Below are positions 7,201 through 64,000 of a stretch of 64,000 nucleotides of DNA, in pieces; position 1 is the stretch's first letter; the number at the start of each line of letters is the position of its first letter. The notes beneath the pieces are model-generated. The model saw only the letters and a program-made list of their open reading frames with translations. It did not search any database and was not told where the DNA came from. Where the stretch lies: contig OX485808.1 in NCBI GenBank assembly GCA_950295325.1, positions 41,687,180 to 41,751,179 on the forward strand, given 5' to 3'. Both the position numbers and the translations under genes were made by a program. The DNA is from Polytrichum commune (taxonomy: Eukaryota > Streptophyta > Polytrichopsida > Polytrichales > Polytrichaceae).

Positions 7201-7258
7201 GTCTCCTCGAGCCAGCGCAGCACTGAGTCCGGGAGGGCCACATGTGGGAGAGCCTAAA
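4240..7258 (+). promoter_or_regulatory. Upstream region and probable 5' leader of the MYB gene
   Basis: This 3-kb stretch has no coding region I can support. It is richer in GC than the flanks and has T-rich runs near 4790 and 5080-5130. The last bases before the coding exon (TTTTGGCAG at 7190-7198) would serve as a splice acceptor, so a leader intron is possible. A TGA at 7154-7156 closes the frame upstream, and the first in-frame ATG after it is at 7259. ATGs at 7167 and 7171 are in other frames and would make short upstream frames. Transcription start and leader exons cannot be placed. Confidence 0.45.
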
Positions 7259-18189: not shown

Positions 18190-21100
18190 GTGTAAGTAAT
18201 TTTCCTTCTTCCTATCACGTATAATTTCATTCACTCCAAAGTCAGAACATTCTAATGATGAACATCATCATCTTCATACCAAGAAAATGACCTTCAATAT
18301 TTGTCAAAAAAAATACTTCTTTAATTCATCCTAAATTTCCTAAAATTATCTATGTATCAATATCTTCGTTTGTAAATGTACAACAAATGGGCATGGTATA
18401 TCTACATTACTAGGAATATTTAGATTACCCAAGCCCTATGTTTATTTTGTAAACCATAGTCACAATGAATAACACCCCTTTTGACCCACATGCAAGATTG
18501 TGCAAATGGACGTGATGGGCATCATGTCATGTCATAATGGATGAAATCTCATCACTTCTGCCCTTGATGTGATGCAATGATCTATGACATGTAATTAAAT
18601 TTTTTATAGTATTATAATGATGCCATTTTTTTGGGATAACTGCTATTAGTAATCGATTTCTAAAAGGACAAAATGATTTATAGACTAGAATAGACCCCCG
18701 CACAAAATTTGAAATTCTAGATCTTGGAATTTTTTTGTGGATTGCTATTATTAGTTGACTCCAAGATAAACCAAAAAGTTAAAATTAAAAAATCCTAAAA
18801 TATTCCGCACCACTAGATCTTGAAGCCAACAAGATCTAGCACTTCCATCTTTTTGGATTTTTCTTGTAGTTCTTGAAATTGTATGCTATGTTAATTATTG
18901 GACAATTGACCATGGGGTTGACTTTGTAAATTTACGCCCTAGGAAATTGTTGGACTTTAACCCTGGCTAGTGGTGTGGCGTTCTGGGTGTGTCATCATAG
19001 GATGTGATGTGAGGTGATGGATGATACGGTGTAAACTAGATTGGAACAAATTCTTCTAAATCAAAGTTGAAAAAAACTCTAATGCAGACCACTGTAGACA
19101 TAATTTTGAGAATAGTACCTTAGCAAACCTAGTACAAATCCTTGTCACACATGTGTCTTGAACCAACATCAATGCACTCAGTTGCAATTCTACAATCAAC
19201 ATATGAAAATTAACATGAAACTTACCAATCATAGGACAAATAATTTACAGGATTGTAATAAGGCAATTGCGAGTGGCAAAGAGTGAAGGTGAGCTGTGAG
19301 TAAGAGCAACATGAGATTGGTGCACATGTTAACAACTCCATGCTAAATAATTACCTAACTAATGTAGCAAGAGCGACAAAAATTCACAACGGATTTACAA
19401 AACTTCAATGCAAAGTAGAGGTACTTGAGAATGAGTACGAAAATGGGGGGAAGGGGACTAATACCTTCCTACTGACCCTCTCACATACAGCCGAATTCTA
19501 GCGCATACCCCTTGGCGTGGGCTAGTATCCGTCGATACCCCCTACTTAATCCACCCACCATTCATCCATGAACTCAAAGTCAAACACAGTCAATATTCGT
19601 CTTCCTCCCTTAATTAATCGGATGCCCATCCAGATAACTCCTTCTTTGCCTAGTTATTGGCGCATATCAATTGATGCATCTGTAAGGAGCTATCAATTAT
19701 CCCTGTACATTGTTCAAGTTAAGTTGACGCTCAATGGTCTAATCAAGTCACCTCAACTTGTCGGTGAGGTATAATTGTTTTAAATTATTTATTATATTTA
19801 TTTATTTGGTTGCTGACCAATTGGTTGGGTCGATTGCTTGGTCAAATGATCTACTTACATGGAGCGTTTTGATTGGTCAATCTTTACCATTTATGGAAGG
19901 TGTGGGAGTCGTACTTCTAAGAGGAGAAGATGATGTGTCCAACAAGTCAATTGACAACCACATTTTTGCATCAAATTTATACAACACAAAAACATCATTG
20001 TCCATGGATTCCATTTTAACAATGGTCACATTTGTGATTTGCATAATTGATATGCTCGATTCATTTGTCAAAGCAATGGTGGAAGCTTGCCTCTATAAAT
20101 TAGAAAGACTTATAACCCTAAACAAACAAGGACCCAATATTCAAATATGGCCATCCTCACTCATGATCTTTAGCATCAAAATTGTTTATGATATATCTCC
20201 ATCCATACTATACATCTCTTGCTCAATGTATATGGTACCAACTTGAAGATTAAACTTCATAAAAAGCAAATCCTCCATGATAATAACATGACCATCATTA
20301 TCAAAAGGCAATGTGAAGGGCACCAAAGATCCATATTCTCTAAAAAAAAGTCATGTGCATTTTGTGGAATGTGTGAGATGTGAATGTGATGGATGTGGAG
20401 AATGCATGGAACAAACAATACTATTTGTATGGTGTTTAGGAACAACAAACAAGATGAAAACCAAACCCATAATGCAAACAAATATTGACCATTGTAAAAG
20501 ATATGACTACACAAATATCAAAGCGATCATGCAACACACAATGATCATTCCATAATTGGGATTTATGGTTAGAGCCACCGCAAATAAGGTGGCAAACAAC
20601 TTTATTACAACTCATTGTGTGAGAGCAATAAATTGATAATCTTTGATACTACAAACAAAATTTGTGTCATCTAACAAATAAAATATTTTGGTTTTAAAAT
20701 AAAATATTTTAACGACAACTATAACTAAGCACATACTAATAATGAGAATAGGCAAAGACTATAGATAGAAATACATGACCTAAAACATTGCAACCCCCAT
20801 TGCATAAGAGAGAGTGTCTCTAAGTTTTTTTTAGGGGTGAAACTCATATAAACACTATATTCGTTAAATTGAGACTTTCTCTAGTCTCAAATTAATATAT
20901 GGATCAAAGAACTTGAAGAGGCCCGAAACTATATTGTCAACAATCTCAATTATATTATATGTTCTAATATCCCAAATCTATGATGTGCGGACATAAGCAC
21001 ATATGGTAGAGCACTCGACACCAACTTCATCAACAAAAACACATTGGGTAGAGCACTTCAAACAAGTTTCACCCAAAAATATATATAAAATGATTTCTAT

Positions 21101-21380
21101 TATTAGCATGTTCAATAGAATATAGACATTGCAACATACAAAGTGCATGTAATAAATGCATGTTTCTTCATTCGAGAATATAGTCCCAAGCATAATAATA
21201 AGATGAACTTCAATTGCAGCTTGAAATATAGTAAATGGATATTCATCCAACTCCAAACAATATAGTATTCGTAAGTTCTACCCAAACTCTGCCCCAATTT
21301 TGAAGAGCACACATATGTGTAATTTATATTGCTATAATTACGTATTAAACTATAATCATGCTAACACAATCCTACCAACT
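18190..21380. other. AT-rich intergenic DNA
   Basis: No convincing gene. On the minus strand between about 20340 and 19877 there is protein-like text with several stops (for example ALTNESSISIMQITNVTIVK), which may be an old decayed gene, but I cannot name a family. Plus-strand frames here, including a 162-codon one at 19758-20246, have no recognisable motif and are hydrophobic, AT-driven reads. Confidence 0.4.
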
Positions 21381-21382
21381 TC

Positions 21383-24300
21383 TCATTCAACGTGGGTTGC
21401 TTCTTCTGCAATCCGAGCAAGGTTGTCTTTTGCAAAAGTTATGTACTTTTGAGGGATGGACACTGATCCACTATGGTGTTTCCGTGGTTTCCATGCTATG
21501 AATATGGAATCTGTATCTACCCAAGATGGACCGTGCTCAGAATCCACCTTCCACCGAAAGTTAGGGTTTGTATCCCAGCCTGTATAATGCCGAATCACAT
21601 CTTCATTCCTTGCTGTCGGTCGATAGTACTCCACTTGTATTTGTCGAAAATGAGGGCTGGAAGTTACAAAATTGGGATTGGACAAAGCTCTTGCCACCCA
21701 CACTGGCTTCGCATATGTCTCGTCTCCAGGACGCAAAATGAGCATATAACCTTCATGACAATCCACTGCAATGCGGAAAGATGGTGGGGGACGACTACTA
21801 GCAGGCCCCACGTAATGGTCGTCCACATCAAACTCCTCTCGAACCTCTCCATTTCCCAAAAGACTAGGCTCTGAAGCTTGTACATCGACTCGTGTTTGTG
21901 GCCAAAATCCATGCCTCAAAGTATGAGGGCTATCTTGGTGGAGGTCTGCCAAGGCGGCACGAACACGTGTCCAATAATGTATCCAACTCCCATAACGATG
22001 CCAACATGATCCGCCAACATCCGCTATTTTCAAACTCTCCCAATATTGTATGAAGCCTGATATACCTTTCAAAATATCCTCCAAATTCTTCATGGCTATT
22101 GGCTTACAAGGCCTAGGCTCCCCATCCGGTAACATGGTCTTTCCATCCGCATCCACGCGCCACACAAGAAGACCCTCCGGCGGGCTCCAGTCTTGTGACG
22201 TGCACAACAACTTGTATTGCATGGCCGGGACACCATCGTCACGCATATAGAAGCGGAATTGTTGTGCCTTCGTATGCCCGATCAATCGGTGAGCTCCACT
22301 TCGAATATAAGGTTCTATAAATGCCTTGAAGTCTGGCACCTCCTCAATCATATGGGGGATGACGGGAACGTTCTCCAAATCCATGTACGACTTCATCAAT
22401 AATGGAATTGTAGGGAAATCCTCCTCCCGCAACTTCATGCTCCACCGCCCAAAAGATGCATCAATATCATCGTGCGTGTGGCCTACCAATAGGAAGGACA
22501 CAAAAACCTCCTTGAAAATGCCTTTCGCAACCAACAACGACCAATATGCAAATACATATCTGCTTTTATTGTCCTTGGCACAATTGTCCAATTGGACACG
22601 CAAAGTTGGAGGCAACTTCTTGGCAATCACGGGTTCATTGGGTGGCTCGGGCAACGAATGCAAGCATACATCTTTTCCATCCAACACCGCTTCATATAAA
22701 GGTGTTGAACCCGTGTTCTCAAATAACAATCCTGAAGAATAGGCTGGTGGTTTCTCTAAATCACGTAAAAGCCTTGCAAATGATCCTATCGTGTGGTTTG
22801 AATCCGCTGGATACAAATCAAGAGCATAATGAGCAAATTTGACATCACCGTGTCCATGTGCAATCATTCCTGCAATGCCAACCCAACGTGATTAGCATCT
22901 ATGTATGAATAAACCATTATGAAGGAATCCATGTTCTCCAGTACATCACGGAATAAAATACAACAACATTTAGGGTATGTCATGACATTGTTTCGAAGTT
23001 CACCTGTAACCGATACAGGCAACTTGAAAAACCCATCCGTGGCCTTGATTCGATTTGCAAAACATGGGGAGGCTGTTTTGGCATGGTCCATTTTGTCATG
23101 GATGACCGTAAGAACCTCCAAGGGCCTGGAGATGGACAAAGCTCTATTTGTGTAGTAATCATTACGGTGTGCCTCTTGCATGTTTACGTGCTTGAAATAG
23201 TTCAATTGATGCGCTGCATATGACTCGGTGCCCATCGTGTGTGCATCCCGGAGGCGCTTCAACTTCTCGCAATTAGAGCACCTGGCAAATTTGTCCCCTC
23301 GTCTTTTTGTAATGTATTCGCTAAAGTTTTGTTTCTTGATTGCACTCAATTTTGACAATGAAATTGGCTCCAACCCAATCTTCTCGCCAACTGCATTAAC
23401 GTCCAACAATATGTCTTTCCATTTTGTGCCTGTGGGAAGAACTTTCTCCACAACCTTTTCACCGGTTGTGAGTGTGCGTGTTTTGTGCGGCATTGCATCG
23501 GCAAGAGGGACAATGATGGTTGCTAGAGTGGCCGTTGCTTGCCTTGTTGCTTCCCTAGGCTTCTTTAAACCCACGTTACCATGGTGACGGGACCGGCGGC
23601 CTTCCTTGGCATAAGCAGCTTGTCTATAAAAGTCCGATTTCGACACACCGTGAATGGTGTACCATGCCTTACAACACACGTCTATGCTTTCAATGGTGAT
23701 GACCTTGCGACCCGTCCCATTCACATGTATCGCCCTATGGACATCAAGTTTTCTTGTGGATCTTAGACGGAAATCTCCAAGCCACATTTCTTCGCGGATG
23801 ACCTTCAATTTATCCCTTGGAAACAATTGGCAACAACGATGCACACAACAATCCTTTGTGGCAACTTCTCTAATGGACTCCTCCCCGAGCAACCTTTGAC
23901 GTTTACAATCAGTTGCAGACGGAGCAGGACGTGCCAATGTATCGTACTTTCTTTGACCCTTGCGCGGCCGCATGTTTGATTGCACCTCCTTTTCGATTTG
24001 CATGTGTCGTTGCTCATGTTCACGCAAGCTAACTCCATCAATTGTGACATTCCTCAATGGCCACCTGCGGAGGGAGAACCTATGAGTGGGATCCACCTCG
24101 GAATGAACGACCGACTCCAATATGACAACCCCAACGTCCTCAGTGCCAAGCGGGTTTTCATCAATGCAATCTTGCGGATGGGTGTTACGGCAAATCCCCT
24201 CCGCCACAACAACTCCACTATCGTTAAGAAGTATCACCTCCAAATTCACCCACGAAGCCCTTGAAAGTCCCGTACATTCAACAATGGGACACTGCGGTAC

Positions 24301-24447
24301 GGAAGACGAAGGTAAATCCAAATGATCTTCATCCGCACTGTCAGCCATAGTAGCCTCCCCGACAATGTCTAGGTCATCATCAGATGCAGATGGCCAAGTG
24401 GCCATGTCATCAGATGACCAATCCCCTATTTCACTAAACCCATCCAT
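21383..24447 (-). CDS. DUF7869-type protein, putative DDE-transposase-like
   Basis: Two exons: 24447-23004 and 22869-21383, joined across a 134-bp intron (donor ACAG|GTGAAC, acceptor TTGCAG|GA) with phases that fit, giving 976 aa. Without splicing the frame would stop at 22864-22866. The ATG at 24447 (MDGFSEIGDW) is chosen because a splice-acceptor-like TAGGCAG lies just before it, suggesting a leader intron; an ATG further upstream at 24540 is possible. Diagnostic stretches are HDKMDHAKT (about residue 447), QLDNCAKDNKSRYVF (about 572) and VGHTHDDID (about 611), typical of DUF7869 proteins. Their spaced Asp residues suggest an RNase H-like, transposase-related fold; this function is inferred. 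Cys pairs in the N-terminal half (CSNCEKLK) could bind zinc. The gene has no breaks. Its 5' side faces the 78-bp satellite. Terminal inverted repeats were not found by eye. Confidence 0.75.
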
Positions 24448-24639
24448 TCTGCCTACACACATGAACATTGAACATTGTCTTAAAATCACAAAAATTGTAG
24501 GTTCAAATCGAAGAACAAAAAAACCATCATATATAAACAAAATTGCAAATACTCAGTGCTCATACAAGTTCATATGACTGCTATGCCATTGGGCTTGTAA
24601 AGGTTTCGGAAGGCCAGTGGCCACACCGGCACCCAGATC

Positions 24640-26010
24640 CCAACCACACTTAGAGGCTGGGTTTGGGTCGAGCGACCCAAACCTTTTGGGAGGATGGGTT
24701 CAGGCTCAATACAGAGAGCACCCACACTTAGGCGCTGGATTTGGGTCGAGCGACCCAAACCTTCTGGCAGGATGGGTTTAGGCTCACTACAGACAGCATC
24801 CACACTTAGGGGCTGGGTTTGGGTCGAGCGACCCAAACCTTTTGGCAGAATGGGTTTTGGGTCACGACAGGGAGCACCCACACTTAGAGGGCTGGGTTTG
24901 GGTCGAGCGACCCAAACCTTTTTGCAGGATGGGTTCAGGCTCACAACAGTGAGCACCCACAGTGTAGGGCTAGGTTTGGGTCGATCGACCCAAACCATGA
25001 GGCAGGATGGGTTCAGGCTCACAACAATGAGCACCCACACTGTAGGGCTGGGTTTGGGTCGATCGACCCAAACCTTGAGGCAGGATGGGTTCAGGCTCAC
25101 AACAAAGAGCACCCACACTGTAAGGCTGGGTTTGGGTCGACCGACCCAAACCATGAGGCAGGATGGGTTCAGGCTCACAACAGTGAGCACCCACACTGTA
25201 GGGCTGGGTTTGGGTCGATCGACCCAAACCATGAGGCAGGATGAGTTCAGGCTCACAACAGTGAGCACCCACACTGTAGGGCTGGGTTTGGGTCGATCGA
25301 CCCAAACCATGAGGCAGGATGGGTTCAGGCTCACAACAGAGAGCACCCACACTGTAAGGCTGGGTTTGGGTCGACCGACCCAAACCATGAGGCAGGATGG
25401 GTTCAAGTTCAGAACAGTGAGCACCCACACTGTAGGGCTGGGTTTGGGTCGATCGACCCAAACCATGAGGCAGGATGGGTTCAGGCTCACAACAGAGAGC
25501 ACCCACACTGTAGGGCTGGGTTTGGGTCGATCGACCCAAACCATGAGGCAGGATGGGTTCAGGCTCACAACAGAGAGCACCCACACTGTAGGGCTGGGTT
25601 TGGGTCGATCGACCCAAACCATGAGGCAGGATGGGTTCAGGCTCACAACAGAGAGCACCCACACTGTAAGGCTGGGTTTGGGTCGATCGACCCAAACCAT
25701 GAGGCAGGATGGGTTCAGGCTCACAACAGAGAGCACCCACACTGTAAGGCTGGGTTTGGGTCGACCGACCCAAACCATGAGGCAGGATGGGTTCAGGCTC
25801 ACAACAGTGAGCACCCACACTGTAGGGCTGGGTTTGGGTCGATCGACCCAAACCATGAGGCAGGATGGGTTCAGGCTCACAACAGTGAGCACCTACACTG
25901 TAGGGCTGGGTTTGGGTCGATCGACCCAAACCTTGAGGCAGGATGGGTTCTGGCTCAATACAGAGAGCACCCACACTGTAAGGCTGGGTTTGGGTCGACC
26001 GACCCAAACA
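24640..26010. repeat. 78-bp satellite built around a 20-bp palindrome
   Basis: Eighteen copies of the palindrome TTTGGGTCG-NN-CGACCCAAA start at 24662, 24740, 24818, 24897, 24975 and then every 78 bp from 25053 to 25989. The central dinucleotide is AG in the first four units, then AT (10 units) or AC (4 units). The spacer reads GCAGGATGGGTTCAGGCTCA, then a GAGCACCCACACT phrase. Units from 24975 on are nearly identical, while the first four are more diverged. Because 78 is a multiple of three, long open frames exist on both strands; they are artefacts of the period. The array lies immediately upstream of the DUF7869-type gene. Confidence 0.95.
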
Positions 26011-26630
26011 ATTCCGCAAAATCCGCCTATTTATTCGGGTGATGCTCTATTAATCTATTTATAACCTATTTGGGACAACTGAACTCATAGATGCTTGTTG
26101 TAATTAGCTGCTCATGAATGGAAGCGTATACAAACCGTGTATTACAGCTCCAACTTAGAGAGCTTGCAGCAATCTCAGGATTGGGACATGAAAGAAAGAA
26201 CCAGCATTTGGGGGGGTTGGGCTCTTTATACTACCCGCCTCCGCTTTGGGCATCCTCTTTGGATGCCTTTCCCACCTGGTCTCCTTTGGATGTTAATTCA
26301 AACCTTCTGACTCAATTTCCCGCTTCTTGTCAATAATAGAGAATGTATATTTAGCTTGGCTCTTCGTTGCCCCAACCACCAAATGAATAATTCAACATAT
26401 ATTTAAAGTTGTTACCACCCTAACTTGGTCAACACTATTCTTCAACTCTTTCATAATTAGTTTTATACATGAATACACCACCACCTTCCCTATTGCCATC
26501 TCCTTTCTCCTTTTATCATTGTTGTATATTTTTCTCACATCCTTACTAATACTAAATCCCTATATGTAACTTCCATATATCACCATAGTGGATATTTAGT
26601 GTTTGAGTTTACATTTAATGTTACTTACTC

Positions 26631-26766
26631 TCATAGGGTTAGTAATGGGAAGTGTATGCGTTCGTTTTAAGTGTATCAAACACTAACTATCATATAACTA
26701 AAAAGGATATAAAGGTTTTGATACACTACATATGAACGCATACACTAAATACCAATAACCCTATGA
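26631..26766. mobile_element. MITE-like 136-bp element with long imperfect inverted repeats
   Basis: The left end TCATAGGGTTA and the right end TAACCCTATGA are exact inverted copies. Inside them GTGTATGCGTTC is mirrored by GAACGCATACAC and AGTGTATCAAA by TTTGATACACT, so the whole element can fold into a long hairpin. There is no coding capacity. A clear target-site duplication was not found, so the superfamily is not assigned. Confidence 0.65.
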
Positions 26767-27573
26767 CAATATGTAAGATTATATCTATTAAGGGGTTTTA
26801 CTCTACTTGTAGTCAAACATTATGGTATATTTCAAACAATATATTGACAAAAGATGTGCATGTATTATAAAACTTCATATACTAAAAGTCACTAAATATA
26901 ATAGTTAATGCTATTATTTAGACTCTCACATGAGGACTTATATTTTGAAAACAAATAATTAATGCCATGACAAACTTGAATAATTTGGCCAACTTTCAAT
27001 TTCTGCTAATTAAAAGAACATATGTTGTGTTGTAATGTGTGCACCCAATATTGCTTCATCCTCAAGACTCCAAGTGTGACAATAACCTAGTACCTATGTG
27101 GAAGTCATTAATGGAACCCTAAACCACAAATGACATTTGGCACGTTCAATCTTCCAAGGATGTTTGAACCTATCGTGAAGTCCCTTGAACTCTACCAATG
27201 TGTGTGAGCAAAACATGCAAAGTTCAAAAGGTATGTCCTCATATCATTCACAACATGAAATCTACTTTAAATTAATATATAATATTTCACTATTCCAAAT
27301 AACATGTTAACATGAACAACATCCTATCCATTATAATCTAGTTCTTATGCTTTTCTTACCAGGTGACAAGGTTATAGGTTAATATTGTATCACCTACTTG
27401 TGAGCACAATATCGTTTATTTCCTTTAGTGCGTTCATTCGTGAAAAACCACACATCCATCTTTCACGTTTGTGAATTAGGATGTTGTGATGACAATATAC
27501 ATTTGTATTGGAAACTACAAGCACCAAGGCCCATGTCATTTGACCTATGTGCCATCCAGTTATGGTTTGTGTT

Positions 27574-27604
27574 GTTTAAGGTTTAGGGTTTAGGGTTTAG
27601 GGTT
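27574..27604. repeat. Interstitial plant-type telomeric repeat
   Basis: The sequence contains about three and a half tandem TTTAGGG units, the first and last slightly altered. This is the usual land-plant telomere unit. With unrelated DNA on both sides it is an internal remnant, not a chromosome end. Confidence 0.85.
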
Positions 27605-28257
27605 CAGGCATCATCAAACATCAAACTGAATGTTTAAATGACTTCATATGATATGTGAACTCCATGGGGTTGCAGTAGATACATTTGTAATCATTTGTTT
27701 CTCCCATGTACTTCAAATGTGAACTTCTAAGTACATATATTAATGTTCACTCTAATGCTACTTGTTAGGGTATCCATTATAGACTAGAGCATTGTCCTCT
27801 ACCAACAACCATCATATAAATTACAATACATAATCCTAAACTGTTAACCATGTGAATGGTTACCATATTTATATTATTGCACCGTGTAATTGCCTTTGTG
27901 GATTGCAATATAATTATGACTTACTCCTCTTAGACTTTGTAACACTCTCATATGATTCCATAAATTACATTATTCATACACCAAAACGATAATGGCTACA
28001 TTCAACGATGTTATCAATTCCAACGGGTGATCATTCAATTGAACACCATTAAAATATGAGTTGGTGATGGTGTTAATTTTGTGGAATACCTTAGTCCACG
28101 TAGGTTTTTGACTGGTATTGAATTGCCGCTAATGAATAGCGGGTTAGAAGGCCGGGGCCGGGCGGCCAAGAGAGGCGCCGGCCCTCCTATGTCCCGCACC
28201 TAGGGGCAAGGACAACCAGGAAGGCAATCTCCCTAGGGTGGCAGGTGTCAACACCAC

Positions 28258-28326
28258 AAGCCTCGCGGGCAACCACCTAAACCAAGGAGGTGTCGACACC
28301 TGGCAAGGTGTTGGCCCGCGAGGCTT
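28258..28326. repeat. GC-rich cruciform-like inverted repeat
   Basis: AAGCCTCGCGGGC (28258-28270) and GCCCGCGAGGCTT (28314-28326) are perfect inverted arms, and between them lies the perfect 14-bp palindrome AGGTGTCGACACCT (28288-28301). The structure sits in a GC-rich block just upstream of the pyrimidine-rich leader of the ParB/FCP1-like gene. It may belong to that gene's promoter or be an unrelated element. Confidence 0.7.
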
Positions 28327-28369
28327 CTGAGCCGTTGATGGGCCCGGCGCAATCTAATGGCCCGGATTC

Positions 28370-28986
28370 GAGGGTTTAGGGTGACCCCTTCCGCTCTCTC
28401 CTTCTCTCCCCTCCTCTTTTTTCTTTCTCTCTTTTTCTTCCTCTCTTCCTCCGCGCCAAGCGCCGCTCTTGGAAACGCCGCCGCCGCTTTCCATAGCGCC
28501 GCGCCAAGCGCTTCCTCTCGCACCTTTTGCTTTTGTCTTGGTCGCGCCGCTTCCCTTCATTCTTCTTTCTCCTTCATTCCTCTCCTCCTCTCTGATGCTT
28601 CTCCTCCTCTTCTCTCATTCTATTCCTCGTGTTATTGTCTTCCTCTTCTTATTCTCTCTTCTTGGTCCAGAGTGTTAGCTTTGAGTGAGTTCGGAGCGGT
28701 TTATTGTGTTGAACTCCTTACTTGTTTTGTAAAATTCATGCATGGAGTGATTTTAGGTTGAGTAGAAGTGAGCACGGTCGAGTGTGATAGAAATGTAGAG
28801 GTCTTTCAAATTAGGCCTGAGTTTGCAAGAATCAGGGGGTTTGTGAGAAAGTTTTAGGGTGCTTGAGAGATTCATTGTGTTTCTGAGATCTTTGTGAGAG
28901 TTGTTCTTTAGTGCCACAACAGAGTTTCTGAGTCTGGTTGTAAGAAGCAGATTGTGAGAGCAGCTTTCAAGAGTTTGAAAGACAAG
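28370..28986 (+). promoter_or_regulatory. Probable promoter-proximal region and untranslated first exon of the ParB/FCP1-like gene
   Basis: A pyrimidine-rich tract (28380-28640, mostly CT runs) resembles many plant 5' leaders. The segment ends in a good donor, GACAAG|GTAAGC at 28986/28987. The next good acceptor directly precedes the ATG at 29915. I infer a non-coding first exon ending at 28986; its start is not known. A frame of 134 codons at 28357 in this tract is low-complexity Ser/Leu/Phe text and is not supported as a gene. Confidence 0.45.
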
Positions 28987-29914
28987 GTAAGCAATTTGCA
29001 TCAGTGCACACAATTTGCATCATTCCCTTTAGGTTCCTATTACATATACAATGCATAAGCATTGTATATGTTGCCCAAGCATTAAACATGCATCTGGAAA
29101 CACAGTAGTTTGGGGAGACGACCCAAACTCATATTAAAATATAATAAATATTTGAATTGCAGCCTAAAATGAACTAAATGTTTGGGTCGTTCGACCCAAA
29201 CATTGCAGCCTCTTGTTTGGGTCGAGCGACCCAAACATTGGAGCCTCATTATGTTTGGGTCGCTCGACCCAAACATTACAGGGAGAAGAACTAAACCACA
29301 TTGTAAAATATAAAAGAACTTCAAAAATTAAGTAAATGTTTGGGTCGTTCGACCCAAACATTGCAGACTGAAATGACTGGGTTGAGGTACCTAAATTTGC
29401 AGCCTAACATGTTTGGGTCGCTCGACCCAAACATTACAGGGAGAAGAACTAAACCACATTGTAAAATATAAAAGAACTTTGAAAATTAAGTGAATGTTTG
29501 GGTCGTTCGACCCAAACATTGCAGTCTGAAATGAATGGGTTGAGCTACCTAAATTTGCAGCCTAACATATTTGGGTCGCTCGACCCAAACATTACAGGGA
29601 GAAGAACTAAACCACATTGTAAAATATAAAAGAACTTCCAAAATTAAGTAATTGTTTGGGTCGTTCGACCCAAACATTGCAGTCTGAAATGAATGTGTTG
29701 AGATACCTAAATTTGCAGCCTCATCATGTTTGGGTCGCTCGACCCAAACATTACAGGGTGACCACCTAAACCACACTTTAAAATCTAAAAGATCTTTTAA
29801 AACGACTTTGAAAATTAAGTAAATGTTTGGGTCAATCCTCCAAATGTTAAATGCACATTGCAATACTTTGGGTCGATCGACCGAAACTCACAGTTTCGAT
29901 TTCTTGGATTGCAG
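28987..29914 (+). repeat. Leader intron carrying a 158-bp tandem array with paired palindromes
   Basis: The inferred intron runs from GTAAGC to TTGGATTGCAG. It holds the 20-bp palindrome TTTGGGTCG-NN-CGACCCAAA at 29181, 29216, 29254, 29339, 29412, 29497, 29570, 29655 and 29729, plus a copy with one mismatch at 29867 and degenerate ones near 29110 and 29825. Two interleaved series repeat every 158-159 bp: centre TT at 29181, 29339, 29497 and 29655; centre CT at 29254, 29412, 29570 and 29729. The spacers (for example GGGAGAAGAACTAAACCACA) are conserved between units but unrelated to the 78-bp satellite spacer. Confidence 0.85.
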
Positions 29915-32900
29915 ATGGCCCCTAAAAAGAGACCAGGTGAAAGGTGGTTCATGCTCGCGCCAGACCACCTTTGGCAGGAGTATGAAACTCCACAGGACGA
30001 TTCTTACGTCCCAAAAGATGGCGTCGTTTTGGCATGGTCCGTTCAGGTGGTGAAGGCATCCATGTTCAAGCTGCTATTCGTGGTGAAGGTGGGGACCCAC
30101 GAGCAGCACACCTGGGCAACGCTGACGGGATGGGAGGTTGCGTCCGTCCAGTCTCTCGGGGACTACGTAGACGTGATACTGGAGAACTCCGCCGTGCAGA
30201 ACGTCCACATGTTCATGCACCAGTTCTCCGAGCCCTTCGACCCCCTGTACGCCAAGGAGACTTGCGTCGACCCTGAAACCATAAAACCAGAGGCCATATT
30301 CATAGATGGTAGTGTAACGAACACGAAGGTTGCGAGCAGGTTCACGAAGTTAAAACAGGCTATCACGGTTCTCAACAAGGCGCTGCAAAGCAAACCCAAG
30401 ACGCAGCAGCCTGTGAGGCGGAAGGCAACGACGGAAGAAGGCGCAGGGTCCTCAAGACCACAAACTGTGAGGAAACCGCGGGCGGTCCCTGCAGACTCGA
30501 GACGGACGAGCACTACAACAACGCCGGCTGACAGCGAGACGCCAACGCCATCAGGAAGCCGTCAGACGACCCCTTCCAAGAGGGGAAGAGAGTCATCGGG
30601 GATGACTGACGAGCCTGTTTCCCCGGAGCTCCGGATGCCGAAGCCTGGCCAAGAGGTGGATGCAGGCGAAATACAAAAAATAAACAACAACTTCGAGACA
30701 AAATGCCTGCACTGCTTCTTCATGGGCAGGGACTTCAAATTCGAGGTCAACATTGCGCAGTGCCACCTTGCGCCACCAGAGAAGTGCGTCCGAGCCAAGG
30801 AGGACGCCTACGTCGACTGGATGGTCGCTCAAATCTTGGGCGGGCAGTTCAAGGACGACAGGCAGACAATTGTTGTCATGCCACAAGGGCTGAAAAGAAT
30901 GCCGACGCCTGAGATGTGGCCGGCAATCTCTAAAGGAGACTTCTGGCTGATTGACGGGCAGCACAGTGTGGAGGCCTCGAAAAAAATCCAGCTGATGACC
31001 GAGTGGGACGACCCGAACAACCAGAAGGAGAAGCTAAAAGTTTGGAAGGCTTTGGTGGTTTGGTCGGACAACGAGACGGTCCTCAGCGACATCTCCAGGT
31101 TCTTCAACATGGGGAACAAAAAGAGGGCCTATCAGGCATCGTGGATCAGAAACATCATGGCCTCGAGGGAGGTGTGGGAGTTTTATGGAATGCCTCCCAA
31201 GGAAAGGGAGAATGCTAAAGACAAGAACCCCAAATGGGAGGTGAGTATGTTTGGGTCGATCGACCCAAACTCCTACATTGTTTTGTTGTCATCGCCAGGT
31301 TGATAGTTTGGGTCGGTCGACCCAAACTCTGAAATTATTTTGATATTGTCCCCAGGTTCATAGTTTGGGTCGGTCGACCCAAACTCTGAAATTGTTAAGA
31401 TGTTTTCGCCAGGTTCATAGTTTGGGTCGTTCGACCCAAACTGCTGTTGCATTTGTTTTTCCATTATGTGTTGTCTAACATGTGCTAATGTCTTCCTGTG
31501 CAGGACTTCAAATATCAAATGATCAATAAATTCTCCTCGATCGACAATGCTAGCCACAAGCAGAAAAAGTATAACGAGCTGAGAGGAGAAATCTATTTGA
31601 TCACAGCGTCCGATTCCGTATGGGCAAGATGGAAGAGTGTTTTTGAAAAACACGAGACGGGGGACCTCATGGACCCCGACACCGGCATGCTCTTCAACCA
31701 GACTATGCGCTTCAAGCAAATGAAGCCTCTGGTGAGGGAGTTCTTCAGAGCGCTTCAAGGTCTCTCCGAGACAGAGATGGGAAAAGCGGCGTCCCACATC
31801 CTACACGTGGAGACGACGGCGAAGAGATGCTGGGTCCACCCTAAGATCGTCTTCACCAAACCCAAGATCTTCGTCCCTTCATGCTACACAATGAAGGAAT
31901 GGACGGAGAACAGGAAGAAGAAGACGACCATCGTCCAGGAGCTGCACAAGCTTGTGCCAGAGAAGAAGCTCATCGTGGACGGAGAGGTCGACGAGGCGCA
32001 CTGGAGGGCCTTCAAAGCCGAATATAAGTTTACCAGTGCGTCCATGGCGGCACTCATGAGGGAGGCGGGAGACGACTTCCTCAGATCCAAGCTCGTGAAG
32101 GGGGGGAGGAACCGGGCGCTTCCCGAACACTCAGTGCGGGCCTTCTCCAACTTCATAAAGGAGAAGAAGATCGTCAGTTTCGAAGGCGATGCGCAATTCA
32201 ACATGGTCACTGTCGAACCTCTCAGGATCCAGGGTTGGCCGGGTTCTGAGTCAAGGAAGGCGATCAGGACTAGAGCCGGGGACCGCTTCCCCTTCGGAAT
32301 GATAGACTTCAGGAACATCCCTGGAGCCTCATTCGAGGGGACTATGAGCACCCCTTTTTACGATCCTTTCTTGTCGAAGTTCGTGAACTACGCCAGCCCC
32401 AAATTCAGGGAGGTCGACGTCTGGCTCTGGATTGTCGAGGACAGAAGGGCAGAGCAGGTTTACGAGATCGTGCGCAAATTGCAGCCGGAGTATGCCGTCT
32501 CGAAATCTCACTACGTTGCTGCACCGGCGGAGGGGGCGTACAGCACGCTGAAAGACAAGAAGACGAAGATCGTCAACGTGCTGTGTTTGTACTTCGTGTA
32601 CAAAGCTGAGCTGCTTAAGGTGCCAAACCATCCCATAGCCAGGATGGAAAAGCTCTTCCAAGTCCAAGAAGGGTTGGGTACCAGCAGGAGCTTATATGAC
32701 GAGGCGAAGTACGCCAACTACCCCGCGGATGAGCTGCGCATGGAGTTCTACCTGCGGATGATGAGGACCCTCACGAAGAGAGGGGACTGCATCTTCAACG
32801 TTTTCGGGGGGTCCAAACCGATTTTTGCAGCCATGGTAAGCAGAAAACCCAGAAGTCCCTATACGTTCGGTTTGGGTCGAACGACCCAAACTAGGGGCAT

Positions 32901-35840
32901 GCACAGTTTGGGTCGCTCGACCCAAACTAGGGCCATGCATAGTTTGGGTCGAGCGACCCAAACTAACTATTCTTATTTTGTTTGGAAGTCATTTTCCATT
33001 ATATGTTCATTTGGTGTTACTAATAGTATTGATTTTGATTGTGCAGATGTCTGGGTTGAACATCTACTCCTATGTAGAGGATGCCGATGTTCAATTCTAC
33101 AGGACCCAAAAGGCGCTGGCCAAGAGAATGGACATCCTCGACTGGATACCCGGATCCTACGTCGAAGAGATCGTCGAGGGGGGCGAGAATCCTTTGGATA
33201 TTGCGAGGCGAATCAACCCGGGTGAATTCGCCATGCGGGCCCCCGTTCAATTGCCAGAGCCGCTCATCGGGTTGCATCCGGGCAATCCGTCTATGGGAGC
33301 AGGTGGCAGGGTTGGGGAGGAGGGGGAGGAAGACGAGGAGGAGGCGGAGGAGGAAGCAGAGAAAGTGGAGGGGGAGGTGGAGGAAGGGGCAACAGGATTC
33401 ACTCAAGAATCCGAGGCCCCTCAGCGGAAGAAGGCCATGCGGCCTGCCACGCCGCAGAGCAGGCTGGTGCCCGCGTTGACGGTGGACGACGCCAAGGATA
33501 TGTACTCGAGGGACGCGACGGCCACCTTCAGGGAGCGTAGAAGGATGAAGGGGAAGAAGCTGTACGGGGACTATGCGGTGGAGGAGACGATCGCAATAAG
33601 CTCCGAGGACGAGGACGACATGGAACTCGCCAAGAAGCTGAGGTCTGATCCTGCCTCCCCCAGAGCGTTCGCCGGGAATGTGAGGGTGAAACCGGAGGTC
33701 CTCACCGTGGAGGAGGCGAACGCAAAAATGCTCCGAGACGAGGAGCAGCGTGTGCGACTGCAGAGGGCTGCCGCCGAGGAACCCTCTGTCCGCAACGAAG
33801 TCGCGGAGTTGAGGGCTCTCCTGTTGGAGCAGGAGCGGCAAAGGGCGATGTCCCAAACTCCGTCCCAAGCGGACCTCATCACGCAAGTGATCCAGGGCAT
33901 GCTGGCGCAGGGATTGGTGATGGCTCCCCCGAGTTCATTCCCTCACTTGCCCGCAGGCTTCCCTCCACAGGATATCCGCCCGCGGCCGGCGTTGGAGCAT
34001 TCCTTCAGCTTCGCGGATTTGCTGCAGCCGCACGCCCGTCCTTACGCGCCTGTGCAGCAGGTGGATGATCCAAACCTTTGGCGCGTCCCCGGAGCGTCCA
34101 GCTCGTTGGCACCCCCCCCGCTCCGGCCTCCCATCCTCTTGCCCCCACACCACCAGCGGGACGACCCCCACATGTTTGGGTCGTCCGACCCAAACAGTGC
34201 CGACGTTGCAGCGTCGCAGAGCGACCCTCGCCAAGCAGCAGGGTTTGGGTCGGCTGACCCAAACCCCGTCCCCCATCAGACCCCGGTCGACGAGCCTATG
34301 CTAGATGTTGAAGGCCCGCAAGGGCCTGGTGATACCTCTACTCCTAACCCAGTCGATGAACCAATGCATGATGCGCATGCGGAGGTTGGGTTGGGACAAA
34401 GGCCTGACAGTCAGCCTTTGCAGGAGCAGGTTGCGGCTGACGGCGTCGTCGGAGGCGGCGGTGACAGAGGTGGGGCAGCGCACGCGATGCCGGCATCAAC
34501 GTCGTCAAGGCACGACCAAGGCGAGGTAATGCACTGACCCCACTCAGTTTGGGTCGGCCGACCCAAACTTCCTGGGTCTTTGACTTCTTGCCTTGGTCGT
34601 GTCCCCTAGCTAGGACGAACTTAGGCCCCCCCCGGCACTCGCGCCCTTCGTCACCCCCAGCGACCATTCGTTCGTCCACCTACCCCCGGCTTTGCAACGA
34701 AGTCTTCATCACGGCGGCCCGTCTCTTCAATTTTTTCTAGATGTAGAAGTAGGCTAGTTTGAACGCATCGTTCAACGCGGCTCCCCCAATCAAGATGTAC
34801 ATAGAGCATTGTATATAATATAATCACCATTTTTGACTCCTATATACTTGTATATTGTGTTTGAATGTATTTTGTATGCTCTTGTATCCCTTGTATCCCT
34901 TGTTGCACCCCCTCCAAAATGAATCAAATGCTTTTGTGTTTGCACCGAGAACGCTCGTTTCCTTAATGCTTCGTTTGGACATAGCATGACATAAGTCGCC
35001 CCCGTTTTCTCTCGCTCGTATCCGCAGGGCTCGGAGCATAGCGTAGCGGCTCCCCGACGCTCTTCTCCAAGGAGCGCAGAGGGCAGCACGGCGGCCCCCC
35101 CGGTTTTACCCGCCCCGCCCCCGCTGCCGAAGAAACGATTCCTGGTGTTAGACCTGAACGGTGTCCTCGTGCAGTGCGTTCATTGCCCTAGGGCCCCCAC
35201 AGTGCCCTTTTGCAAGCCCGAGGACGCTAATTACGACGGGCCGCCCACGTTCATAAAGAGCAAACTAGTTCACCTCCGCCCGTGGCTTCGGACCTTCCTC
35301 CAGATCGCCCAACAACGATGGTGGGTGGTCGTGTGGAGCTCCATGACGGCCGAGAACACCAATGCGGTCGTGGAGTTCATCTTCAAGGGCATCGAGCCCC
35401 CCTGCATGGTCCTAGCACAGGAAGCCTGTAGAATATTGTACACACAGGACGGCAAAGTCGTCAAAAAACCAAACAACCCCGCTTCCCCCCAATACCTCAA
35501 GGTCTTGAAGCCCATTTTTTGGGACCAGCGACCGTCCTTGATAGGCGTCCCCTACGACGTCCGCCCCACCCGCGAGAACACGCTCATGGTGGACGACAGC
35601 GCCGCAAAGAACATGTTGAACCCGACGGCCAACTTCATAGTGTGCCCTACGTGGACGGTCGAGAAGGTCCGGGACCGATTTTTGTTAGACCTTAGTAAAT
35701 ACCTCCAGGCGCTCTGGGGAAGTGGACTTCCCGTAAACAATTTTGTTAGGAATAATCCCATAGGCGAGAGATACTTGGATCCACGAGACCATTTGTACAG
35801 AGAGTTGTTATCTCACGCGAAATTTAACAAGCTCATTTGA
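29915..35840 (+). CDS. Multidomain protein: ParB-like, degenerate DNA methyltransferase-like, FCP1-like
   Basis: Coding exons 29915-31240, 31504-32835, 33047-34525 and 35028-35840 all join in phase 0 with good GT-AG borders; about 1649 aa to the TGA at 35838-35840. The ATG follows an acceptor directly. Residues about 265-430 look ParB-like: a PPEKCVRAKEDAYVDWM helix region, then IDGQHSVEASKKI (about 346), the place of the family's GHgRlrAAk motif. Across exons 3 and 4 (about 869-915), GDCIFNVFGGSKPIFAAM followed by NIYSYVED matches the AdoMet-binding motif I of N6/N4 DNA methyltransferases, with no DPPY-like catalytic motif found. A Glu-rich tract (about 976-1000) and a coiled-coil-like segment (about 1104-1155) follow. 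From about 1416 an FCP1/NIF HAD-like domain is seen: FLVLDLNGVLV, WWVVVWSSMTAEN, VDDSAAKN. The second catalytic Asp of DxDx[TV] is Asn, so phosphatase activity is doubtful. Domain assignments are by eye. Confidence 0.75.
31250..31440. repeat. 57-bp intronic repeat array of the palindrome
   Basis: Four copies of the 20-bp palindrome lie exactly 57 bp apart (31250, 31307, 31364, 31421) in the intron 31241-31503; their centres are AT, GT, GT and TT. The spacer (CTCTGAAATT, then CAGGTTCATAG) differs from those of the other arrays. Confidence 0.9.
32871..32962. repeat. 36-bp intronic repeat array of the palindrome
   Basis: Three palindromes lie exactly 36 bp apart (32871, 32907, 32943) in the intron 32836-33046, with centres AA, CT and AG. 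They are separated by a CTAGGGGCATGCACAG-type spacer. Confidence 0.9.
34175..34263. repeat. Two palindromes inside a coding exon
   Basis: The copies at 34175-34194 (centre TC) and 34244-34263 (one mismatch) lie within exon 33047-34525. Both are read in the same frame and give FGSSDPN and FGSADPN in an otherwise Pro/Asp/Gln-rich segment. Confidence 0.85.
34548..34567. repeat. Single palindrome in the intron before the FCP1-like exon
   Basis: A perfect TTTGGGTCG-GC-CGACCCAAA lies 22 bp after the donor at 34525/34526. The rest of this intron (to 35027) shows nothing else. Confidence 0.9.
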
Positions 35841-35983
35841 GACAGTACGTGTGTTTGTATGTGTGTGTGTGTATATGCGCCTACCCATTTTGTGTAATTT
35901 ACGCTTCATATGTATCTTGATTTTCACGCGCTCTATCTCCCCCCTTTTCCTTGGGTTTTGTTTTGTTCCAATTTTGGCTCCAG

Positions 35984-36754
35984 CGTTTGGAGCCCTCGAT
36001 TGACGTCGTCAGCGAGTCAGACTTGGGGAGCTTCTTCTACGAGACCGTTTACGACGCCGCGTCAACCATCGACTACTCCAAGGAGCCTCTTGACGCCGGC
36101 GTCGTCGATAGCCCCCCACCCAAGCAAATCTTCCGGCGATCTGCGTCCCCGTCACCGCTCAAAGGCATAAATCGCAAATGCGTCCGGACATCCCCCTCTC
36201 GGCCCGGCGGCAGTAGTACACCTCAACGGCGGCTGCGGATGGACGCTCGGCCTACGAAGAGTGGAACCCTTCCTATTCCTTTGCGGGATGCCTTGCCCCT
36301 CCTCGCCAACTCCGACGGGAACGCCCCCGGTGACAAGGTGAACCCCCCCCCCCAAAAAAAAACATGGTTATCCGCGCATTACAATCATTTTGCACTTAAA
36401 AAATGAATGTGTGACACGTTTGGGTCTTCCTCCCTAAACTAACACATGTGTTCGTGCGTTGACGCGTTGCAGGTTGCTCCCACCCGTAAACCTATGCGGT
36501 CTAGTGCGTCCATCGAGTTGGAGCGTTTCTACTCCATGACCAGAAATGCAAGACAGTCCACTTCATCGTATTCGAATTCTTCGTCGTATAATTCGGGCGG
36601 CCGACGGAATACAAAATGTGTTATTGATGGCGTTCACCCCAAGAATGGCTATAGTCGCGGGGCGGAGATTTTCAGGAATGTTGAAGCAATGCGAGCAAAA
36701 GAAGCTGCAGCAAAAGAAAAAGAGGCAAAAGAAAAAAAAAGCAAAAGAAAATGA
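35984..36754 (+). CDS. Two downstream exons of the ParB/FCP1-like gene
   Basis: Exon 35984-36337 (acceptor GGCTCCAG, donor GACAAG|GTGAAC) and exon 36473-36754 (acceptor GCGTTGCAG) are open, in phase 0 with each other and flanked by good splice sites. They encode a Ser/Pro-rich region and a terminal Ser/Asn-rich part with GYSRGAEIFRNVE and a Lys/Glu/Ala tail. The relic at 17.6-18.2 kb carries the same terminal motif attached to the FCP1-like part, which supports these exons as part of the gene. How exon 35028-35840 joins them is unclear: it ends in a TGA before any strong phase-0 donor. Either a different donor is used, or the TGA is a nonsense change, or these exons are untranslated. A degenerate palindrome lies at 36419 in the intron between them. 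Confidence 0.5.
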
Positions 36755-36779
36755 AGCAAAAGAAAAAGAGGTAGTATCC

Positions 36780-37200
36780 GAGGCTAGATAGGCCATAGTA
36801 GGCGTAGGGTTTTGGGCCATAGGCAAGAACATTTTGGGTCGCACTATCCAATGCATGTGTGGTGTTAGCATGATATGCATTTTACATGCCACACTTTGTA
36901 TGTTTTTTTTTTGCAATAATACAAGTTAGACATGATTTCCCCTTCCATATGGTCTAAGGTTTGGATTGCCCTACCTAAACCATCACAAATATGAGTTTGG
37001 AATATTTTGTATGCAATATTATATTGGTTAACATATTAACCCTTCAATAAGATCTATGGTTTGGATTGCCCTACCTAAACCATATTCATACAAGCTCTAA
37101 TATTTTGTGTGCAATAATATGAATGTTTTAAGGTTTCCCCTTAAATGTGGTCTAAGATTTGGATTGCCCACCCTAAACCATCACAAATATGAGTTATTTA
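36780..37200. repeat. Degenerate inverted-repeat motifs in the 3' flank
   Basis: GTTTGGATTGCCC(T)ACC(C)TAAAC-type motifs recur near 36957, 37049 and 37150, spaced about 92-101 bp. They resemble decayed forms of the TTTGGGTCG...CCCAAA palindrome. The same motif is next to the relic at 17.7 kb. Confidence 0.6.
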
Positions 37201-37880
37201 TGGGGTTCTTGGTCTAAACACCTGCTTCAAAGTGTTCGCATCTTACAACTTTCTCCAATATGTGTTCCATTTATCCTTGTTCTTATTTATGTGAATGTCT
37301 CAAAATGCCCAAAAAGTCTCAATTTAACGAATATAGTGTTTATAGCAAAATAGTGGTGGTGTTGTTTAAATGCAAACACAAGCAAGGGATAATGCGAAGC
37401 ATGGAAAGAAACAAAGACGAAAGATGTCATTCAAGTAATTTAGTTCAAAACAATTGATGAGGTCCAAAATGAAGATAAAGTTGTTTAAAATAAAGGAAAT
37501 TCACATTCGTGAAGTCACACATATATTGAATTTCAACTCTAGTTTTGATGAGAACATTGACAACGACAGGGGATCACAACCATAGATTTTTTAAATGATT
37601 GTATTGAGAGAGTTAATGATATGGCACAACAGTCATCAGATAATGATGAGGAATAAGACACACAAACTTTCACAAAGGTAAGGCTATCTTTTTAATTCAA
37701 CTCTTATAATTATTAAGAATAAATATATATTGAGGATGCACTATGTCTTTTGTGCAATATGTCAAAGTGTGTGGTGGGCTCTGCATGCCACACTACCCTA
37801 GGGGGGAGGCCCTAGACCCCATGACCTCTTCCAAAACCCTAAAGACTTTCTCATTGTTGTGCCCTCCATTTTTACAAGAG
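37200..37880. other. AT-rich DNA, no gene seen
   Basis: Only short frames without recognisable motifs are seen. Confidence 0.5.
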
Positions 37881-42296: not shown

Positions 42297-44172
42297 TGTG
42301 AGGCCAAACCCCCCACCCTTAAGCGTCCGTAGTCCGAGTAGTGGGTTTGGGCTCACATTCCTCCGCGGTATTGGATTTGGACTTGGATGAGTCCATAGTG
42401 CAAGATTCACCCTTCAAGTGGTCTTGGATTTAACTTTGGTCTTTGCTTCCTTTGTCTTGCCATCGCGAGAGTGCTCCACATTCTCCATTAATTTGTGCAC
42501 GTGGTTTATTTTTAAAGAGAGGATGCAAGTGTTAAAGAAAACACTATTCTCTATAGTCAATCTCAAATACATTTACTTGTGAAAGCCACCATAACACTAA
42601 CTAGCATAATGTAACTAACTACTTGTCTATGAGCTAATTAGGTAGGCTATCTACTAAGCTCCTTCATGAACCCATCTCTTTACTTTCTAATTACATAAAC
42701 CTAGCTCCTTCATAAACCCAGCTCCTTCAAAAACCCAGCTTCTTAGCTTCTAACTAAACAAACCCAGCTCCTTCATAAACCCAGCTCCTTCATGAACCCA
42801 GCTCCTTAGCTTCTAACTAAACAAACCCAGGTCCTTCATAAACCTAGGTCCTTAGCTTCTAACTAAACAAACCCAGGTCCTTCATAAACCCAGCTCTTTA
42901 CTTTCTAACTAAACAAACCCAGCTCCTTCATAAACCCAGCTCCTTCATGAACCCACAACTTTGTAGTTGTAATCCCCAACTACCTCACTAATTATTCAAG
43001 CCCTTAACTAATCTTCCTACCTAATTTCCCTAATTCTACTAACAACCCCTTTCTAATCACACAATTCTTCTCTAATCCTAAAATCCTAAAATCCTAGAGA
43101 GGAGAGGGGGAGAGAGAATTTCCTAACTTCACTAAGACTAACTAATCCACACAAGTATATTTTTGCACTCATCACAACATCAAGTGCTCAACTCTTAAAC
43201 ATGGAACTTGCAACCACGTGTATTCAAAACATGAACTTTAAGTACCACAAATTGGAATCATGAATTAACTTTAAAATCCTTCACGTCAACACTAATTCTA
43301 CCAAGAGGTCAAGCCCTCTTCAAGGCTAACAAGCCTTGGCTCTCAAACTAAAAACTAAGCACACACATGTGCTCCAATATGGCTTCCCACACCCACACTT
43401 ATAACTCGTGGGGTGCCTTGGAGCACAAAGGAAAGAGAGGATGAGTGAGGGAAGAATGAGGGATTATATAGTAAGCTTGAGGGGGTGAGCACCCTCAAGG
43501 CTCACGATAAGCCCTTGAGATTTCCTCCTACTTAGTAGGCGCCAATCCTATCTTCTAAGCCTTCCTCCCTCAAATGATCAACAAGGATCCTAATTCGAAC
43601 ATTTAACTAGCCTTGGCTTTCTACCTACCACACTTTACCAAACTTGGGATGCTTCAACCCAAACTTAGCCTCCTTCGCTTTCCGCCGCCATAACTTTCTC
43701 CCCTTACTTTCCCAAATCGTCGCTCACCACTTAATTCAAACCACGATGCTTAACTCGTGATTTGATTGGTGCTTTGAGAATTTGCTTATCCTCCACCTTG
43801 CATTCTTCCTTGGGCCTTCCCCATTAAGTGGCCATGATGAGGTGGTCCACTTGTGCGCTCCATGTGATCCTCCATTCATCCCAATTCGAATGCACTTGCC
43901 TCTTGAGTCACTTTGGTTGTCTCCATCCATTTGTACTAGCCTACTCACTAACTACTCAATCCAAGTTCTCCTTACCTATCCTCATTCACTCAAATCCTTC
44001 CGAAGGTAAAAACACAATAACAACTCACATCCTAGCCTCTTACAACATGGTACTTCTAAGACTAACATTTCACTTTTTTTTATATTTTTGTGAAGTAACA
44101 TGCTACTTCAAAGTGCATCAACTAACGTTTCAAGGGTCTAAGACTAAATGTGGGCACCCTTTTGGGCTCACA
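42297..44172 (-). repeat. 3' LTR of the gypsy element
   Basis: 1876 bp, TGTGAG...CTCACA. It contains short tandem repeats of a CCAGCTCCTTCATAAA-type unit (about 42705-42955). No clear polypurine tract is visible on its internal side, where the sequence is TAATTGGCGACC on the plus strand. Confidence 0.93.
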
Positions 44173-44233
44173 TAATTGGCGACCATCGGGGGATGAATCC
44201 AAACATCTCTTGCTCCAAGGGTAAGTTGCCTAG

Positions 44234-51360: not shown

Positions 51361-51378
51361 CTCCCGGCGGACGCACCA
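51361..51378 (-). promoter_or_regulatory. Primer-binding site
   Basis: Reading on the minus strand, the LTR ends CTCACA, then TAAT, then TGGTGCGTCCGCCGGGAG. A match starting with TGG just inside the 5' LTR is where a tRNA 3' CCA end pairs. I could not identify the tRNA with confidence. Confidence 0.65.
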
Positions 51379-51382
51379 ATTA

Positions 51383-53871: not shown

Positions 53872-53906
53872 TATGGAAAAACAACCACATAGCCTACCCT
53901 CAAAAA

Positions 53907-63715: not shown

Positions 63716-63739
63716 ACAATTTTCCTGCCTTTAAATCAC

Positions 63740-63960: not shown

Positions 63961-64000
63961 TATAGTGTCCATCCTCGAAAGGGGAGAGTAGTATTGCCCA

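Follow-up and report, generated by a model that had tools for sequence, protein, structure and literature searches.

The stretch of DNA analysed here, a window of 64,000 nucleotides from Polytrichum commune (assembly GCA_950295325.1, contig OX485808.1, positions 41,687,180 to 41,751,179 of the forward strand), carries a complete DNA transposon, hereafter element W, in which a short palindrome recurs 38 times in and around the genes for a probable transposase and a ParB-like protein (Table 1). Both the terminal inverted repeats (TIRs) and the target site duplication (TSD) that define a cut-and-paste DNA transposon are present in element W. Matching ends were found in all three element copies examined, and the three copies examined at both ends are each flanked by a 4-bp duplication (TATA, AAGT and CATT). 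In the source assembly (407.8 Mb in 64 contigs, to which all genome counts below refer) the TIR occurs, at up to two mismatches, 589 + 595 times, as opposed to 0 for a control; the 90 ends listed for contig C1 can be combined into 34 head-to-head pairs less than 60 kb apart, of which 21 span 14.4-18.6 kb. The family comprises hundreds of copies in this ~408-Mb genome. Exon 2 of the ParB-like gene has 1236 genome candidates, the 95 scored ones being 90-100% identical, and DUF7869 has 1863, with 97-100% identity among the 87 scored. Given this similarity and the many TIR ends, we take the family to have amplified recently, as far as sequence comparison can tell. A derivative of 4.8 kb at C1:42393157-42397936 is bounded by TIRs and contains a DUF7869 copy, and is too short for the rest of the element.

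Table 1. Features of the window and two relatives of element W (window positions unless contig C1 is named)
Feature	Position	Strand	Remarks
Target site duplication, left	20847..20850		TATA
Element W, complete DNA transposon	20851..37340		16,490 bp; sharp ends common to independent copies
Left TIR	20851..20878	+	28 bp, AACACTATATTCGTTAAATTGAGACTTT
Probable transposase gene	21383..24447	-	proposed exons 24447-23004 and 22869-21383; DUF7869 in second exon
Palindrome array 1	24644..26009		18 copies, 78-bp period; between divergent genes
Proposed 5' leader intron with palindrome array 2	28987..29914	+	10 copies, 158-bp double period; splice sites by eye
ParB-like gene, exon 1	29915..31240	+	442 aa; PH-like region and predicted ParB fold
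Intron with palindrome array 3	31241..31503	+	4 copies, 57-bp period
ParB-like gene, exon 2	31504..32835	+	444 aa; conserved
Intron with palindrome array 4	32836..33046	+	3 copies, 36-bp period
ParB-like gene, exon 3	33047..34525	+	493 aa; two in-frame palindromes
Coding palindrome, exon 3	34175..34194
Coding palindrome, exon 3	34244..34263		one mismatch
Single palindrome	34548..34567		just past donor of proposed intron 34526-35027; position shared with relatives
ParB-like gene, exon 4	35028..35840	+	270 aa; NIF/FCP1-like phosphatase domain (Pfam PF03031, E 3.7e-15)
Right subterminal 98-bp repeats	36905..37189		contain degenerate palindromes that differ from the 22-mer by 4-6 mismatches
Right TIR	37313..37340	-	identical to left
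Target site duplication, right	37341..37344		TATA
Gypsy-type long terminal repeat (LTR) retrotransposon	42297-53261		polyprotein 44234-50494 (-); two 1879-bp LTRs, 99.8% identical
Relative B	C1:1180000-1192500
Relative C	C1:2113500-2127000

The two genes of element W lie on opposite strands. The intron of the transposase gene was placed by eye from the consensus of homologues; a DUF7869 homologue is predicted to adopt a DDE-transposase fold and may, on the strength of that model, be counted among the RNase-H-like transposases. Wherever a DUF7869 relative among the matches listed bears a species name, it belongs to a moss, either Ceratodon or Physcomitrium. For P0001, a homologue of the ParB-like protein, a ParB fold is predicted, and in the phosphatase domain of exon 4 the classical motif, DxDx(T/V), is represented by DLNGV. 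Profile searches of the PDB returned no row for either the DUF7869 or the ParB-like alignment, and single-sequence searches returned two chance-level rows for exon 1 and none for exon 4.

A scan of the window for the motif TTTGGGTCG-NN-CGACCCAAA found 38 copies at positions 24662-34567, 36 of them exact and two with one mismatch, all of which fall inside element W. When up to three mismatches were allowed, the 64 kb yielded 39 matches, the last being a lone three-mismatch site at 36833, against a shuffle mean of 0.03. Copies lie between the two genes and in each of the four introns proposed for the ParB-like gene, and two more stand in frame within its coding sequence, where they encode FGSSDPN and FGSADPN; the last copy of array 2, at 29867, has one mismatch and stands directly upstream of the start codon. 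The initial annotation had described about 38 copies confined to about 10 kb, with periods of 78, 158, 57 and 36 bp and an exon pair 69 bp apart. All of these spacings were recovered in our scan, the 158-bp period being mostly an alternation of 73- and 85-bp steps, and the count is correct for the window; the copies are, however, not confined to it, as the genome holds 9731 exact copies of the 20-bp core, compared with none of a reversed control pattern. The near-invariance of the arms was likewise borne out, but the site is longer than the 20 bp originally given: of 230 half-sites read inward, 224 have a G immediately outside the arm, which makes the conserved site 22 bp long.

Genome copies were placed for the first 100 listed of the 9731, which form 8 clusters. 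The suspected association with ParB/FCP1-like and DUF7869 genes is evident among them, 81 lying in three W-family elements (contig C1, at 616, 1180 and 2115 kb). For the remaining 19, the nearest gene of a second pair, transposase-like and ParB-like and described below, is no more than 17 kb away. The palindrome alone was considered as a mobile unit and rejected, since its copies recur at set positions within a larger element.

Relatives B and C share 75-77% DNA identity with element W and 83-86% protein identity in exons 1-2, exon 2 of each having one frame break. Both carry the palindrome at the same anatomical places as W, including the exon 3 pair 69 bp apart and the one-mismatch copy before the start codon, whereas their intergenic period is ~56-66 bp instead of 78 and their spacers are unrelated to those of W. 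Because the places are kept while the spacers are unrelated, it is the site itself that is conserved. The same holds within the window, where three arrays show arm identities of 100% and spacer identities of 85, 54 and 56% (the first of these three being that of array 1, with 17 units compared), and where DNA self-comparison (pieces >100 bp) pairs units within arrays only, in agreement with the earlier statement that spacers are unrelated between arrays. The coding palindromes of exon 3 keep 35 of 36 arm bases both between W and B and between W and C, against a background of 75%, and the third bases of codons whose amino acid is unchanged are kept in 10 of 10 cases in the arms; outside the arms the figures are 206 of 334 for B and 208 of 343 for C. 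With a background identity of 96.7% between B and C, these amount to nearly one comparison. Among 15 metagenomic homologues (67-80% identity, one 34%), judged at the peptide level, nine have the read-through peptides expected of an intact palindrome, three have near-variants and three neither.

From these comparisons the palindrome arms look selected. Selection and a mobile or copied unit had been offered as alternative reasons for the survival of the arms, and both appear to apply, the whole 16.5-kb region being mobile. Ordinary satellite growth with gene conversion, serving no function, would explain that every array is tandem and that copy number differs between elements. It would not readily explain why arms are kept when spacers differ between arrays and elements, why synonymous sites are frozen inside the coding palindromes or why pyrimidine-purine (YR) centres are nearly absent, and we hold it to be very improbable.

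The central two bases, which the initial annotation took to vary freely, are in fact constrained. A YR centre occurs in just 38 of the 9731 exact copies in the genome, in every case CA/TG and never TA or CG, while 5678 have a purine-pyrimidine (RY) centre and the remaining 4015, by subtraction, RR or YY, many of the copies being related and hence non-independent trials. At up to four mismatches there are 164 distinct contexts, and among the 114 that are exact there is no YR centre. This bears on the RNA hairpin also proposed at the outset, which might act in transcripts, be it in splicing, in RNA stability or as a source of small RNA. The palindrome can indeed fold, at -13.2 kcal/mol, and it is present in introns and in one exon; yet the largest array is intergenic, there is no Rfam match at the gathering score, the sole mirrored double mismatch among the 164 contexts is uncompensated, and folding is as good with the excluded CA centre as with two of the allowed ones. 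A hairpin function is thus poorly supported and, in our estimate, hardly to be expected. Since RNA folding energy does not separate the allowed centres from the excluded one, the constraint on the centre speaks for a requirement of DNA shape.

A further asymmetry concerns CpG. The exact palindrome contains two CpG by definition, and palindromes persist where the spacers have lost theirs: the spacers of 11 arrays of W, B and C hold 22 CpG against 228.5 expected from base composition, and those of array 1 hold 2 in 987 bp against 82 expected, array units being copies of each other, so that the effective sample is smaller than these numbers imply. Elsewhere in the window CpG ratios are 0.34-0.98. 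Mismatches to the palindrome are most frequent at the G of arm position 4 and at the CG of positions 8-9, and many are C>T or G>A. As a sequence pattern, this fits, and does not prove, a methylation-driven loss around sites that are themselves kept by selection or protected.

The best explanation of the palindromes is that they serve a giant transposon as cis-sites, and a site for a dimeric DNA-binding protein, a form that the initial annotation had suggested, is the best-supported reading, with ParB/FCP1-like and DUF7869 genes in the same element. We consider it somewhat probable that the palindrome GTTTGGGTCG-NN-CGACCCAAAC is bound by the ParB-like protein that element W itself encodes and acts, like VANC motif arrays, against silencing. 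The two parts of this reading can be graded separately: the ParB-like protein likely binds the palindromes, and an anti-silencing role is plausible by analogy. The ParB-like protein would bind the site as a dimer, in keeping with its two-fold symmetry, with the centre being read by shape, and the arrays would create a high local occupancy over promoter and introns. The bound protein, together with its phosphatase-like exon, could then regulate the chromatin or the transcription of the element, most likely by countering silencing in the manner of VANC proteins in VANDAL elements. The arrays would be created and renewed as a unit is duplicated in tandem together with its spacer, and selection would preserve the arms only.

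Alternatively, the palindromes might be bound by the DUF7869 transposase and help to pair the ends of the element, as subterminal arrays do. Arrays of transposase sites are indeed found in other elements, the TNPA sites of En/Spm being one example, and degenerate copies do occur in the right subterminal region of element W. The intact copies are nevertheless internal, at least 3.8 kb from the left end and at least 2.7 kb from the right, and the second-pair stretches have the same palindrome without DUF7869 similarity; this alternative therefore seems to us distinctly unlikely. The degenerate form carried by the 98-bp subterminal repeats (36905-37189) is GTTTGGATTGCCCTACCTAAAC, which is possibly a weaker or different site.

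Several observations weigh against assigning the site to the ParB-like protein. First, the structure model is mostly of low confidence outside residues 37-160 and 277-404, and no DNA-binding helix-turn-helix was detected in it, confidence being low beyond residue 405. Second, there is no ParB family among the Pfam matches of the protein, on its own the sequence signal for ParB falls short of significance (best PHROG match E 0.031, obtained with 4 of 10 homologues), and all 10 alignment rows have GQHS at the position of the nucleotide-binding motif of ParB, which is GxxR. Third, the second pair carries the same palindrome and its ParB-like protein has no significant similarity to the first; since the palindrome adjoins two such dissimilar proteins, the binder could be a third protein. 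Finally, the four arrays of the second pair show no CpG depletion (20 against 23.7).

The second pair came from the 19 first-listed palindrome copies outside W-family elements, which form five clusters; the DNA around four of these was inspected. It consists of a gene at locus L057, which we take to be transposase-like from its motifs, which has no Pfam match and which holds a palindrome array in an apparent intron, and of a frame with a ParB-like box, DGNHR, at L060:4512-5000. A DNA-methyltransferase-like frame (phrog_67, E 3.8e-6), perhaps of the same gene, follows 2.7 kb downstream on the same strand. None of the exons of element W matches the second-pair stretches. Genome-wide, 80 transposase-like copies of 2226 candidates and 150 ParB-like copies of 1226 were scored; 64 of the 80 have a ParB-like copy within 20 kb (1.2 by chance), and 62 of these 64 are divergent from their partner, at a median distance of 4.7 kb. 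The shared plan of a transposase(-like) gene, arrays and a ParB-like gene, together with the shared first palindrome, makes the two gene pairs alike in layout, and we infer that the second is likewise a transposon. Its ParB-like family was identified by the DGNHR box; the best Pfam ParB row has E 0.089 (3 of 25 members), the PHROG ParB match E 0.083 (6 of 25 members), and a PDB profile search with its alignment returned a single row, a ribosomal protein with E 0.023. Profile comparison of the two ParB-like families is not significant, though their DGQHS and DGNHR boxes align.

Because the palindrome is common to both pairs, the main rival to binding by the ParB-like protein is a DNA-binding protein of the host, either a silencer or a transcription factor, whose site several transposon families acquired independently for their transcription, or which marks them for the host. 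That two gene pairs with different transposase-like and ParB-like proteins have exactly the same palindrome speaks for this rival. Against it, the first 100 listed genome copies all lie in W-family elements or at most 17 kb from a second-pair gene, each pair has its own ParB-like gene, and one element gene has sites in its coding sequence and in each of its proposed introns, more than a promoter would require. On balance we find a host protein rather unlikely.

A second palindrome, P2 (CCTGTGCGTTAACGCACAGG), has 490 genome copies and accompanies the second pair. The 50 P2 sites listed form 10 clusters when joined at 20 kb, and in all 10 at least one site stands 0.5-1.75 kb away from a ParB-like gene. 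It is conceivable, if doubtful, that two unrelated families of giant transposons share a 22-bp address read by a transposon-encoded ParB-like protein and so protect or activate each other's copies; with other ParB-like families carrying other palindromes, the genome would hold competing or shared addresses, a counterpart of VANC specificities. Where one site serves two gene pairs, one would have to ask whether transposons cooperate in protection or whether one parasitises that of another. An array at L059 (C1:468.5-472 kb) has the perfect palindrome GGTGTCTCGGTACCGAGACACC as its basis and a period of ~138 bp, and may represent a third type of such arrays.

The closest parallel is with the VANDAL elements of Arabidopsis, as described in the available parts of two reports. 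There, VANC motif arrays lie in upstream regions and introns, apparently arose from tandem repeat formation (PMC5735166) and go with the loss of silent marks (PMC5735166; PMC10398659). Like element W, VANDAL21 and VANDAL6 have short motifs in tandem repeats upstream of and in introns of their own genes (PMC5735166), and the motif is concentrated in its own family with rapid turnover of unit plus spacer (PMC5735166; PMC10398659). The VANC21 motif differs in being 9 bp long (YAGTATTAY) and in one orientation (PMC5735166), whereas the site of element W is a 22-bp palindrome. Element W further differs from VANDAL elements in that its candidate binder is ParB-like and its motif occurs in two gene pairs, and anti-silencing is here proposed by analogy. 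VANDAL elements are Mutator-like, with a 9-bp TSD, whereas the TSD of element W is 4 bp. A 4-bp TSD is a feature of Sola elements, and is the only point of agreement of element W with Sola1.

Also comparable, as far as the accessible parts of its description go, is Sola1-1_Ec32 of Ectocarpus, a giant DNA transposon of 21.5 kb that encodes a ParB-like plus methyltransferase protein opposite its transposase (PMC12477816). Algal ParB-like proteins of this kind may, it was suggested, bind their own transposon and modify it epigenetically (PMC12477816). Element W, too, is giant and encodes its ParB-like protein opposite the transposase, and ParB-like and DNA-methyltransferase-like frames on the same strand recur in the second pair. 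In contrast to the Ectocarpus element, element W has an NIF/FCP1-like domain and a DUF7869 gene; no N4/N6 methyltransferase domain was found in it by Pfam. The words "palindrom" and "binding site" are absent from the main text of PMC12477816. ParB-like accessory proteins of algal transposons are already published, and the present analysis adds a candidate binding site. With bacterial ParB/parS, Noc and KorB operators, element W shares a predicted ParB-N fold and a palindromic site in many copies; unlike in ParB/parS, GxxR is not kept, and the setting is a plant transposon rather than a segregation system; no helix-turn-helix is detected, in a model of low confidence beyond residue 405.

In the open-licence literature we found no other report of such a site and no paper on DUF7869, and a search combining ParB, transposon, moss and palindrome gave nothing relevant, judging by titles and abstract openings. 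The palindrome thus offers a candidate DNA target for ParB-like accessory proteins, a site of 22 bp with 38 copies in an element that amplified recently and, as its 20-bp core, 9731 copies genome-wide. To our knowledge, sequence-specific self-protection of transposons is otherwise known only from VANC proteins, and it would, if our reading is true, be extended to a different protein fold.

An origin of the palindrome in known viruses or prokaryotes was considered and rejected. There are no exact matches in viral contigs; 65 pattern matches come with no encoded relative of the ParB-like protein; and the one exact match in a 257-Gb prokaryote collection compares with ~4 by chance (an estimate for 18 fixed bases). 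A link with the neighbouring Gypsy element was likewise rejected, as that element contains no copy of the palindrome. A solo LTR of the same Gypsy family, with the target duplication ACGAC, lies inside a palindrome array at C1:475.4-477.7 kb (L060) and merely interrupts that array (C1:475-478 kb).

The remainder of the window contains other insertions and, apparently, a host gene beside them. LINE-like (long interspersed element-like) open frames occupy 53600-64000 and have reverse transcriptase, RNase H and endonuclease-like motifs. At 54-56 kb the strand that carries them is extremely asymmetric, with ~83% A plus C, a GC skew of -0.68 and an AT skew of +0.65. At 7157-12363 lies the apparent host gene, which encodes a MYB-type transcription factor, probably GAMYB-like, with Asn-rich stretches.

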